From IMG/VR virus record IMGVR_UViG_3300043172_000501, positions 32,657 to 96,656 of that record: 64,000 nucleotides of DNA; one strand, 5' to 3'. This document shows positions 17,303 to 21,129 of this stretch, piece by piece. A program made the position numbers and the translations under genes. Numbering within the stretch: the stretch's first letter is position 1; each line of letters starts with the position of its first letter. Under the pieces are notes generated by a model. The model was not told the DNA's origin. It was given only the letters and a program-made list of their open reading frames with translations, and did not search any database. Source of the DNA: a virus.

Positions 17303-17518
17303 ATGACTAAAAGAAACTTTGACATAAAAAAGATTCAGAAGAAATCAGTCAAGACTGTCTGGAACCTAATGATAAGACAAATACAATATCAGCACAAAGG
17401 GATCTATATATATTACAGAGGTCATCTATTGCGTACAACAAAAAGAAGATCCCTTAGGATAATCTGTGAAGAAGAAAACTTAGTAACAGTAAAACAAATA
17501 CTGGAGGCAATCAGATGA
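17303..17518 (+). CDS. Hypothetical small basic protein
   Basis: Seventy-one residues, strongly basic, with a Tyr-rich middle (YQHKGIYIYYRGHLL). It overlaps the lipoprotein gene by 4 bases (ATGA). No family recognised. Confidence 0.5.
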   Translation: MTKRNFDIKKIQKKSVKTVWNLMIRQIQYQHKGIYIYYRGHLLRTTKRRSLRIICEEENLVTVKQILEAIR

Positions 17519-18426
17519 AATACATTACACTCATCCTAATCATTTTAACTCTTGGCTGCTCTGGAGAGATGAGCCGAAGATATGTAGAGGTATCATATGG
17601 AACAGAACAGAGCGGAGACACAGGCACGAGCACTGGAGAAAATGAGATTAGAAGAGAGTGCGAAATCAATGGGCAGTGCGATACAAGAGGGCTTAGTTCC
17701 GATGGAGGACATAGTGGCCTGGATACTTCTACAGACACAGTCGCTGGTTCCAGTGACACAGGAACATCGTCAGAAATTGACAGCGGAACTTCAGGAATGG
17801 ATAATGGCGGAAGCGACTCAGGCTGTTATGACGAAACTGGAGAACTTCCATGTGGATATGATGACACCGGAGAAGATACCAGTATCATGGACAGTGAAAC
17901 CGGAACAGAATCCGACACCGAAGCCGATACTGATTGGCAACATACCGACACAGCAACCGAACATGTCGACACCGAAGCCAATGACACGGACACAAACCAT
18001 GACACCGAGAATGATACGGAAAGCGAAACAGAAACAGGAAGCGAAGTCGCCGATGGAACTGACAGTGGATGGGGAACTGATTGGGACAGTGACACTTCCA
18101 TGGGAGAAGACACAGAAGTAATAACTTTACTATGGGATGCTGATGCTCATCTTCTTGTCACATGGACAGAAGGCTTAAACGCTTGCGCTCTCGTTGGCTG
18201 GCGATTACCCACTATTGAAGAGGCTCAATCTATTCTGATGTCACCAACAGGTAATGGTTGCTGGTGGGATGAATCAATCTTTGGAGATTTGTGTTATGAA
18301 ATCTGGACACGAAATCCTGCAATCCCTCCACCTTATAATCAGCAGACAGTAAACTTTGTCTCAGGTGAGAGTCGATACCATCCATACACAAAACAAAAAT
18401 ACGCACTCTGTGTGCTTTCAGTCTGA
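17515..18426 (+). CDS. Phage-encoded lipoprotein with Asp/Thr/Ser-rich linker and DUF1566-like domain
   Basis: The 303-residue protein starts with a hydrophobic signal ending in TLGC (Cys15), a lipobox-like lipidation site. Residues about 30-200 are a low-complexity Asp/Thr/Ser/Gly/Glu linker. The C-terminal ~100 residues contain GWRLPTIEEAQSIL and several cysteines and end YALCVLSV, as in DUF1566/Lcl-type surface domains. It is probably exported and membrane-anchored, perhaps altering the cell surface of an infected or lysogenic host; that is inference. An ORF in another frame (17597-18121) covers almost exactly the linker, so the linker DNA may be dual-coding. GGAGG precedes the ATG. Confidence 0.65.
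   Translation: MKYITLILIILTLGCSGEMSRRYVEVSYGTEQSGDTGTSTGENEIRRECEINGQCDTRGLSSDGGHSGLDTSTDTVAGSSDTGTSSEIDSGTSGMDNGGSDSGCYDETGELPCGYDDTGEDTSIMDSETGTESDTEADTDWQHTDTATEHVDTEANDTDTNHDTENDTESETETGSEVADGTDSGWGTDWDSDTSMGEDTEVITLLWDADAHLLVTWTEGLNACALVGWRLPTIEEAQSILMSPTGNGCWWDESIFGDLCYEIWTRNPAIPPPYNQQTVNFVSGESRYHPYTKQKYALCVLSV
17597..18121 (+). CDS. ORF overlapping the lipoprotein linker in another frame, paralogous to the 18663 gene
   Basis: This 174-codon frame has its own AGAGG ribosome site. Residues 11-41 align without gaps to residues 13-43 of the protein at 18663, with 15 identities in 31 (shared LEES.KS..AI..GLV..E..VA), and similarity continues to about residue 75 (L..W....AT). That conservation means this frame is, or was, a gene. 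Its second half is Pro/Thr/Lys-rich and may only be a shadow of the lipoprotein linker. Either two proteins are made from this DNA or one frame is a relic. Confidence 0.5.
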   Translation: MEQNRAETQARALEKMRLEESAKSMGSAIQEGLVPMEDIVAWILLQTQSLVPVTQEHRQKLTAELQEWIMAEATQAVMTKLENFHVDMMTPEKIPVSWTVKPEQNPTPKPILIGNIPTQQPNMSTPKPMTRTQTMTPRMIRKAKQKQEAKSPMELTVDGELIGTVTLPWEKTQK

Positions 18427-18662: not shown

Positions 18663-19208
18663 ATGAGCGATACGCCAAACAAATGGGGACAACAATCAAA
18701 AGAGATTGAACGTCTAAAATTAGAAGAGAGTTCTAAGTCCGTGGCTGGAGCTATCACACAAGGGCTCGTCACATTAGAAGAGGTCGTGGCTCGTGTAGCA
18801 GAACTAGTATTAAAACCGATAGCTCATGAGGAAACATTATCAATAATTACTAGAAGACTGACAGCGTGGACAGTGGAGCAGGCTACTCATAAATTATTAG
18901 AATCAGAAGTCTGGCCCCCACCAACCGATAGAGAAACTGATTACGCAGCGCATGTCGAAGAGTTAGGTAACAGTGTGAGATCTAGCCTTGGTATAGATCC
19001 ATCTTTATTAGGGCAATCATCAAACAGAGAAGAGTTTGAACCAGGAGAGCTAGTGTATTACCATCCGATAGCTGGTGAAAAAGAATATAAGAAACGCCCA
19101 GGAGTCATAATTAACTCAAGAGGTTCAGATATGTCTTATCGAGTAAGATTTAGAAATGAAAAAGAAAAAATAACCAATGACCTATTTTTGTCAAAGAGGT
19201 CATCATGA
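18663..19208 (+). CDS. Two-domain protein: paralogous N-domain plus SH3/KOW-like C-domain
   Basis: One hundred and eighty-one residues. The helical N-domain (about 10-80) is paralogous to the overlapping ORF at 17597. The C-domain (about 122-178; PGELVYYHPIAG ... RPGVIINSRG ... LFLSKR) resembles a small SH3-like barrel and is paralogous to the end of the next protein. It overlaps that gene by 4 bases. The function of either module is unknown. Confidence 0.55.
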   Translation: MSDTPNKWGQQSKEIERLKLEESSKSVAGAITQGLVTLEEVVARVAELVLKPIAHEETLSIITRRLTAWTVEQATHKLLESEVWPPPTDRETDYAAHVEELGNSVRSSLGIDPSLLGQSSNREEFEPGELVYYHPIAGEKEYKKRPGVIINSRGSDMSYRVRFRNEKEKITNDLFLSKRSS

Positions 19209-19867
19209 CAAGAGCAAAAGAACAAGCTAAGATGATTCAACAGATAGAGCGAGAAGCCAGGCGAGAGGTAGAATACAAGAAAGGAGATCCTGTTCTCTAT
19301 ATGCCTGAACACGCAAGAGCTATGTACCTTGATGAAGATTGCAAGAAAGGGATTGTGTCTAGTGTTAATAAGAAGTGGGTATTCGTAAAATATGATTGTG
19401 CAGATTGCACGATGGTAACAGGCGACGAACCCTATACTGCACAGGCGACTGACAGAGCCGACTTAAGACTGATTAGAGATAAGACCTTAGCAGAACGATT
19501 AAAAGACCAACAGACTACCATATTGAAGCAGACAGTGGACATGATGGAAGAAGGCATGTTCCTTGACGGGGAAGTGGTTTACTACAGAATAGAAAAAAGC
19601 TTTAGCAACAAACCATCTAACACCAACATGAGGGGTGTCATCAACGGCAGTGGGCAAGGCGACTACTATCAAGTGCTGATGGATAGAGATAACAAGAACA
19701 GAACAGTCCATAAGAGTTATCTTAGCAGAAAGAATGAGACACCAGAAGAGATTGAAGCACAGAAGAGACGGAACAGTGAAGCGCTACACGTCAGAATGCG
19801 ACAACGGGTGATAGATCATCCGTATTCAAAATTCATAAAGAAGAGAGAAAGTAAACCAATGTTTTAA
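19205..19867 (+). CDS. Protein with two SH3/KOW-like modules
   Basis: Two hundred and twenty residues. Module 1 (about 23-95) begins YKKGDPVLYMPEHAR and contains KKGIVSSVNKKWVFVKY. Module 2 (about 118-175) begins DGEVVYYRIEK, contains MRGVINGSGQG, ends SYLSRK, and matches the C-domain of the preceding protein. Helical basic segments flank them. Such barrels often bind nucleic acid or peptides. Confidence 0.5.
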   Translation: MTRAKEQAKMIQQIEREARREVEYKKGDPVLYMPEHARAMYLDEDCKKGIVSSVNKKWVFVKYDCADCTMVTGDEPYTAQATDRADLRLIRDKTLAERLKDQQTTILKQTVDMMEEGMFLDGEVVYYRIEKSFSNKPSNTNMRGVINGSGQGDYYQVLMDRDNKNRTVHKSYLSRKNETPEEIEAQKRRNSEALHVRMRQRVIDHPYSKFIKKRESKPMF

Positions 19868-19880
19868 GAAAGGAAATGAT

Positions 19881-20390
19881 ATGAACAAGACAGCACCAAA
19901 CCTAGACGGCGTAACACCATCAGCAATTATTGCAGGCCAAGCTATTCAACAAATGTTAGCTGACAGCTCAGGCGGATGTACACCAGGTGAGATATTAAAG
20001 ATGGCTGACACACCAGAACAAGAAATCAGATTAGGCTTTTTGGTTAGTGATGAGAACAAACCAGAAGGTTGGAAAAGAAAATTGTGCTTGCCTGATGGGG
20101 CACTCTTTGAAGATAAGAAAGGCAGGCGAGTTATTGTGTCCGTTATGACATACAGTGATTGTCGACTATGGATACATGCGAGCATCAGCCATACCAAATC
20201 CAATAAACTACCACACTACAACGAGATAGCGATGCTGAAGAAGTATTGGATAGGAGAAGATTACAAGGCTATCATGGTATTTCCTGAAAAGAAGTATCAT
20301 GTCAATATCAATCAGAATGTCTTACATTTATTCTCATGCCTTATGGAGAATCCACTACCAGAATTTTCCATGGGAACAGGTAGTATTTAA
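19881..20390 (+). CDS. DUF7694-like protein
   Basis: The 169-residue protein has the pattern CRLWIHASISH, then KYWIGEDYKAIMVFPEKK, YHVNI and VLHLFSCL, which I recognise from phage proteins of the DUF7694 type. AAAGGAAA precedes the ATG. Function unknown. It is the last gene before the promoter-terminator unit at 20404. Confidence 0.55.
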   Translation: MNKTAPNLDGVTPSAIIAGQAIQQMLADSSGGCTPGEILKMADTPEQEIRLGFLVSDENKPEGWKRKLCLPDGALFEDKKGRRVIVSVMTYSDCRLWIHASISHTKSNKLPHYNEIAMLKKYWIGEDYKAIMVFPEKKYHVNINQNVLHLFSCLMENPLPEFSMGTGSI

Positions 20391-20403
20391 TTTTAAAAAG
20401 AAC

Positions 20404-20432
20404 TTGATTAGTAAAGTGGTACCATGTATAGT
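20404..20432 (+). promoter_or_regulatory. Promoter of small RNA unit 1
   Basis: TTGATT at 20404-20409 and TATAGT at 20427-20432 are 17 bases apart. The predicted start near 20439 lies only about 70 bases before an intrinsic terminator. Confidence 0.55.
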
Positions 20433-20438
20433 AAAGCC

Positions 20439-20507
20439 TGCTTTCCTAACCGTCGCTTATGGTACTGAACCCCCCACCGATAATAAGCGATGGTTAGGTT
20501 TTTTTTT
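20439..20507 (+). ncRNA. Candidate small RNA 1
   Basis: Transcription from the promoter at 20404 would end at the terminator at 20445-20507, giving an RNA of roughly 70 bases that is almost entirely one long hairpin. Its 22-base loop contains six consecutive C. No ORF of note is inside. The alternative is an ordinary terminator with a chance promoter. Confidence 0.45.
20445..20507 (+). terminator. Intrinsic terminator
   Basis: CCTAACCGTCGCTTAT (20445-20460) pairs with ATAAGCGATGGTTAGG (20483-20498) over 16 positions, with one G-U wobble. Nine T residues follow (20499-20507). Transcripts from 16 kb should end here unless antitermination operates. Confidence 0.85.
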
Positions 20508-20529
20508 GAATAACAAAAGGACACACGCA

Positions 20530-21129
20530 ATGAGCAGTAGAAAACACAAATCAACAAGAGACAAACGACGAGCCAAGAGTATCGCTAAGACAACAGCAGA
20601 GCGAAAGAACATGGCTAATCTATCACTAGACCAACGCCGAATAATGGAGGTGAGAAATCAGAAGAGATCTTTAGCCAAGGAGATATTTGAGATAATCCAG
20701 GCGAGAGTCTTGAAGAAAGTATCAGCAGAACTTTACAGTGGATTAGTCGAATACGGGATGCTTGTGCCAGTAAGCCAAGATGCTGCAGAAACAATTAAGT
20801 CCATGGTAATGAAAACTATGAAACCATTGAACGACATCCCCGTGAAAGAACAGACGCCAACAATAATTAGTGAAGCAAGCTCTATACTACAAGAACTCCA
20901 CACAGGTTTTATCGATGCTGGCTTATTGAAATTTGAACCGCCGAACCTTATGCAGAGAGCACCTGACGCAAGAAAATATATGAATGGAGACATTGAAGCT
21001 GTGGACAAAGTGAACGATATGGACCACACTCTAATCACTCAATATGTTAAAGAACAGATGAAACGAATGAAGAAGTCGGTACCAGGAATGCAAAAACTCT
21101 TAGTAGAACTGAAAGAAGAAGCTGCATGA
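20530..21129 (+). CDS. Hypothetical basic/helical protein
   Basis: One hundred and ninety-nine residues from ATG 20530 (AAAGG upstream), after the terminator; a longer frame from 20299 would run through the terminator and is rejected. The N-terminus is very basic (SSRKHKSTRDKRRAKS), the rest helical, ending with charged helices. It overlaps the next gene by 4 bases. No family recognised. Confidence 0.55.
   Translation: MSSRKHKSTRDKRRAKSIAKTTAERKNMANLSLDQRRIMEVRNQKRSLAKEIFEIIQARVLKKVSAELYSGLVEYGMLVPVSQDAAETIKSMVMKTMKPLNDIPVKEQTPTIISEASSILQELHTGFIDAGLLKFEPPNLMQRAPDARKYMNGDIEAVDKVNDMDHTLITQYVKEQMKRMKKSVPGMQKLLVELKEEAA

Follow-up and report, generated by a model that had tools for sequence, protein, structure and literature searches.

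Does the DNA that encodes the linker of a phage lipoprotein also encode a second protein in another frame, and if so, which of the two frames came first? This question is raised by a gene in the 64,000-nt stretch analysed here (the window), which is part of a 96,656-base virus record. The record carries a terminase gene, the assignment of which was backed by a search, and tail-sheath-like and baseplate genes, which were assigned by sequence reading only. The features that define the locus are as follows.

17515-18426, + strand: lipoprotein gene with signal peptide, lipobox Cys (MKYITLILIILTLGC), linker, and C-terminal Lcl_C (DUF1566) domain (ORF, Pfam, relatives)
18124-18423, + strand: lipoprotein domain Lcl_C (DUF1566), which lies beyond the overlap (Pfam match and alignment)
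17587-17590, + strand: GAGG Shine-Dalgarno-like motif, 6 bases 5' of the nested ATG (sequence, background rates)
17597-18121, + strand: nested ORF of 174 codons in frame +1 relative to the lipoprotein, starting with ATG (ORF list, alignment)
17606-17830, + strand: candidate dual-coding segment proper, where the nested ORF shares homology with the N-terminal domain of the 18663 protein (homology, recoding, and divergence tests)
17831-18121, + strand: tail of the nested ORF, rich in Thr, Pro, Lys, and Gln (recoding test, +1 ORFs of relatives)

The hydrophobic leader of the lipoprotein ends in the lipobox cysteine, as read from the sequence, and relatives of the lipoprotein also show a Cys after a hydrophobic stretch. 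The linker is rich in Asp, Ser, Gly, Thr, and Glu. The match of the C-terminal domain to Lcl_C (PF07603) had an E value of 9.7e-7 and 29.5 bits (33.4 in another search), which is below the Pfam gathering cut-off of 34.9; the syntenic relative in record G025 scored 42.8 bits, above this cut-off. Judging from the domain, the lipoprotein is most likely displayed on the host envelope during infection and would bind a ligand via Lcl_C.

A nested frame in the lipoprotein linker

The earlier note had described a second plus-strand frame with its own Shine-Dalgarno (SD) sequence, ending where the DUF1566-like domain begins. Both observations were borne out: the ORF at 17597-18121 starts with ATG and follows the GAGG at 17587-17590, and its end at 18121 adjoins the Lcl_C domain, which extends from lipoprotein residue 204 (about base 18124). 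In this phage, a core SD was present before 4.5% of internal +1 ATGs, compared with 54.5% of genes. The motif lends modest support to a translation start at the nested ATG.

The length of the ORF was dropped as evidence for coding. The +1 frames of the linkers of two relatives are open for 119 and 137 codons and encode mostly low-complexity Thr/Pro/Arg sequence. Moreover, 25% of the synonymous recodings of the lipoprotein stretch under the tail were equally free of stops, so that length alone is weak evidence. No match to anything was found for the tail, that is, the remaining ~95 codons of the nested ORF. Since the +1 frame of such linkers is naturally without stops, the tail is probably a by-product of this frame. 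On the minus strand, a 95-codon ORF of Ser/Val repeats lies over the linker at window positions 17826-18113; antisense ORFs over the linkers also occur in two relatives (L004 and L107) and look like by-products of linker composition.

The homologous part of the nested ORF is related to a gene 0.8 kb downstream. The downstream genes concerned are as follows.

18663-19208, + strand: free-standing paralogue; its N-terminal domain (18678-18899) is homologous to the nested ORF and is followed by a C-terminal SH3-like segment (tblastn, alignment)
19205-19867, + strand: neighbouring gene with SH3-like segments, likely a relative of the C-terminal part of 18663 (score 57 versus 32.4 ± 5.1 in shuffles, P 0.002)
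19881-20390, + strand: DUF7694 gene, a synteny marker found downstream of the lipoprotein gene in relatives (Pfam E 7.2e-16)

The paralogy of the linker ORF with this gene had been proposed on the basis of 15 identities in 31 ungapped residues. This count is correct, and the alignment covers nested residues 4-78 and residues 6-79 of the 18663 protein, with 25 identities and 45 positives in 73 aligned codons. Its score was 109, whereas the maximum was 65 among 2000 residue shuffles and 71 among 5000 shuffles of lipoprotein codons. The paralogy thus stands for residues 4-78 and does not continue beyond residue 78, where nothing is shared. When the whole 96.7-kb record was searched with the 18663 protein by tblastn, only two places were detected, the gene itself and the nested ORF (E 3.5e-8), and phmmer gave an E value of 5.8e-8. 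The nucleotide similarity lies in the same register as the protein alignment. Beyond the homologous part, the 18663 protein continues as an SH3-like segment that is similar to the C-terminal part of 19205, a protein whose N-terminal part is common to eight other viral contigs (up to 250 kb) at 44-76% identity.

Outside this record, no relative of the domain shared by the nested ORF and 18663 was found in the related records, which were searched whole. The 18663 protein had no homologue among phage and plasmid records, nor had the joint profile of the two proteins among bacterial and archaeal genomes. Scans of viral contigs with the nested protein, the 18663 protein, and the joint profile gave none either, although these scans hinge on short conserved peptides and diverged homologues could escape them. 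The family is known from two members, both in one metagenomic record. The 20299 protein (ORF 20299-21129) was considered as a third member and rejected: the nested protein scored 47 against it (35 ± 6 shuffled, P 0.03), but the 18663 protein scored only 30 (P 0.68). Assignment of the 18663 N-terminal domain to DUF6891 (PF21831) was likewise rejected, with 16.4 bits against a gathering cut-off of 27 and no match when the own record was searched. A flagellar motor switch protein structure and weak NCBIfam matches were below the cut-offs and inconsistent between the two copies.

Residues 1-76 of the nested protein contain no Tyr, Phe, or Cys, and the same holds for the N-terminal domain of 18663 (bottom 2% of windows). 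In AlphaFold predictions from single sequences, which were of poor confidence (pLDDT 53 and 40), the nested domain had four helices and the matching part of 18663 was also helical.

Dual coding over such a linker would be workable because of the genetic code. As read from the code, the codons of Asp, Glu, Gly, Thr, Asn, and Ala and the AGY codons of Ser have a purine in the first position and never T in the second. A hydrophilic linker of Asp, Thr, Ser, Gly, and Glu would consequently be written in purine-first codons that hardly ever carry T in the second position; read one base later, it would yield codons that end in A or G and are almost never stops. The shifted codon set would favour Glu, Lys, Gln, Arg, Ala, Val, Leu, Met, and Thr, which would suit amphipathic helices. 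The linker accepts almost any hydrophilic sequence and could therefore adapt to a second protein.

Synonymous recoding tests were conducted in both directions using the phage's own codon usage. When the nested protein was fixed (79 codons), D/T/S/E/G/N made up 76% of the lipoprotein frame, compared with 51 ± 4% in the recodings, none of the 4000 reaching the observed value. The lipoprotein frame also had no stops, versus a mean of 2.6 in the 4000 recodings (P 0.05). As a control, the 18663 gene in the same test showed nothing unusual, with 43% D/T/S/E/G/N versus 41% and 5 stops. When the lipoprotein residues were fixed instead, the score of 109 between the nested frame and 18663 compared with an average of about 40 and a peak of 86-88 in 3000 recodings. 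Each frame therefore carries information that is unexplained by the other.

Taken together, we consider it probable that 17606-17830 encodes two proteins, with a nested +1 protein overprinted on an older lipoprotein linker frame. The older frame would provide the proximal linker of the phage-encoded lipoprotein; the +1 frame, with its own SD and ATG, would provide the helical N-terminal domain of a small 18663 paralogue located in the cytoplasm. We infer that both proteins are made and, more weakly, that the nested frame is the younger of the two. As its paralogy suggests, the nested product is probably a small cytoplasmic helical protein that mimics or antagonises the N-terminal domain of 18663. 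The proposal of overprinting with two co-encoded proteins, one of two offered in the earlier note, is supported by the two-way recoding, the SD, and the codon-position divergence described below. The other, in which an out-of-frame gene gave rise to a new linker, is disfavoured, since five other records have the linker without the nested domain and simulations with selection on the lipoprotein only, over at least half of the divergence, never reproduced a conserved nested protein.

Relatives of the linker and the direction of copying

Some 25 related virus contigs were obtained by a terminase search. A lipoprotein composed of leader, linker, and Lcl_C-type domain was present in five other virus records (L092, which belongs to G025, L093, L096, L099, and L107); the copies in L093 and L096 are nearly identical, so that these records count as about four independent ones. 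In L092, L093, L096, and L099, a DUF7694 gene lies downstream of the lipoprotein, as it does at 19881 in the window. The linkers of all five consist of plain Asp/Thr repeats over most of their length, and the nested domain was not found in any of them. Because the relatives have the linker without the nested domain, the linker is, as far as these sequences indicate, the older feature.

Several further observations were made on these lipoproteins. The 99.6-kb record G025 breaks in the repetitive linker, with the N-terminal part of the lipoprotein at the contig end (L085) and the Lcl_C part at the start (L084:1-433), which suggests that the genome is circular or permuted and that the assembly broke within the repeat. 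At L004:1560-2759, the same type of leader and Asp/Thr linker precedes an FGE-sulfatase domain (PF03781, E 2.5e-48) instead of Lcl_C; the C-terminal domain of the lipoprotein therefore appears to be swappable. The linkers at L099:3457-4455 and L085:12010-12600 contain an inserted stretch, DEDGDGW...CDD...EIYDPPNGIDEDCDGLTDE, that resembles Asp-rich metal-binding-type motifs. No insert of this type is present in the linker of the window.

Codon usage was compared between the frames. When ranked by synonymous codon choice among the gene windows of this phage, the lipoprotein frame (29th percentile) and 18663 (20th) were ordinary, and the nested frame was at the extreme low end (0.1 percentile). 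These values match the prediction for overprinting on an older linker, although a lasting constraint from the linker would give the same picture whichever frame came first. The Spearman codon-usage criterion (PMC3744397) gave 0.25 versus 0.31 and did not separate the two frames.

If the segment is indeed dual-coding, we lean towards the order in which the linker came first, the gene second, and the copying out third. The 18663 gene would then have arisen by copying out of the nested N-terminal domain and its joining to an SH3-like segment of the 19205 type. More specifically, and tentatively, it is possible that a gene was born on the +1 frame of the linker, that its domain escaped by duplication and was fused to the 19205-type segment to give 18663, and that the overlapping ancestor and the released copy both survive.

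The reverse direction appears somewhat unlikely. Here, the start of an 18663-like gene would have been duplicated out of frame into the linker, which was then purged of stops and made hydrophilic; both proteins would still be co-encoded, but the nested sequence would be the older one. A free-standing gene with normal codon usage does lie 0.8 kb away, and the N-terminal domain of 18663 has a -1 frame that already resembles a linker (37% D/T/S/G, in the top 1% of the phage's gene windows) and would have made a suitable insert. This linker-like -1 frame, at the 1-2% level, would fit an origin from the linker as well, but amino-acid composition explains it. However, the present N-terminal segment of 18663 has 4-5 stops in the lipoprotein frame, and its synonymous recodings average 5.5; judged from the present sequence, its insertion would therefore have truncated the lipoprotein. 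In addition, the searches found no homologue of the domain outside this record, which fits a birth at this locus better.

Divergence between the nested frame and 18663

Overprinting with two proteins, in either direction of copying, was weighed against decay of the nested frame by means of the differences between the two copies. By nested codon position 1/2/3, the nested ORF and 18663 differ at 38/25/50 sites, and 45 of the 73 aligned residues are positives (BLOSUM62), compared with 27 ± 3 when the differences were placed at random. Position 2 of the nested frame, the most conserved of the three, coincides with the synonymous third position of the lipoprotein frame; if only the linker mattered, it should therefore be the freest. 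The copies have diverged in the 3>1>2 pattern of a coding frame, and a decayed relic is therefore unlikely. Part of this coding-type signal comes from the 18663 branch, and with two sequences the branches are inseparable; likewise, because the family has only two members in one record, selection on the nested frame after the overlap arose is inseparable from selection on 18663.

According to the relic explanation, out-of-frame capture of part of an 18663-like gene supplied new linker DNA, which today is under selection solely for its linker role, with the nested frame untranslated. Such linkers are tolerant, their +1 frames remain open without selection, and the nested tail matches nothing, all of which would agree with a relic. 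We nevertheless regard it as quite unlikely, since the fewest differences fall at the very position that it leaves free, and the SD and ATG are still in the right place. No simulation with selection on the lipoprotein frame alone over at least half of the divergence reproduced a conserved nested protein: with that much of the divergence unconstrained, the 45 positives were never reached, and with 40% unconstrained they were reached in only 2% of simulations. Simulations of an early conserved phase followed by a linker-only phase fitted only if the latter covered less than about 30-40% of the divergence; the simulations thus bear on older captures, not on one recent enough to account for less than about 30% of the divergence.

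Finally, the explanation that the similarity is a composition artefact of a low-complexity region was ruled out by three kinds of shuffle and has practically no probability left: although the linker is of low complexity and its recodings keep some similarity to 18663 (mean about 40), the score of 109 lies above all 2000 residue shuffles, 5000 codon shuffles, and 3000 synonymous recodings, the record-wide E value is 3.5e-8, and the nucleotide similarity keeps the register of the protein alignment.

Significance and comparison with known systems

Overprinted genes are usually without homologues, so that the coding of the second frame is hard to show from sequence. At this locus, the free-standing paralogue in the same genome provides a test of second-frame coding, and the host gene occurs in relatives that lack the nested frame. 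Coding by the nested frame is supported because a second, non-overlapping homologous copy exists in the same genome. If confirmed, the case would make it possible to trace how a gene was born on, or nested in, a low-complexity linker and how it is connected with an independent gene. We suggest that Asp/Thr-rich linkers, a frequent feature of these phage lipoproteins, favour the emergence of new genes; if the escape by duplication were true, they would be gene nurseries, since their +1 frame is naturally open and they tolerate recoding. Annotation pipelines that discard nested ORFs would miss such genes.

DUF1566/Lcl_C proteins appear in papers on diversity-generating retroelements (PMC4159848, PMC6642488). 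The lipoprotein described here likewise ends in an Lcl_C/DUF1566 domain, and a related record has an FGE-sulfatase domain after a linker of the same type. No reverse transcriptase (PF00078) was found in this record, and unlike the retroelement cases, the present finding concerns the linker, not the Lcl_C domain.

According to a review (PMC8227390), de novo frames are most commonly shifted by +1, and disorder is frequent among overlapping proteins. The D/E pair of phiX174 (Fiddes and Godson, reviewed in PMC8227390) resembles the present case in that a gene is nested on the same strand in a shifted frame and the nested protein has no known relatives elsewhere. Unlike phiX174, the host frame here is a low-complexity linker and the record is about 97 kb rather than a compact genome; furthermore, a free-standing paralogue of the nested protein, itself a predicted product, lies in the same genome. 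The overprinted orphan genes of E. coli (PMC2268670, PMC4683798, PMC5810103) are similar in being novel frames over older genes in a prokaryotic system. They differ from the present putative case in that the latter has a second, non-overlapping copy of the domain. Among overprinted overlapping genes, this locus would be notable for its free-standing paralogue and its tolerant host frame.
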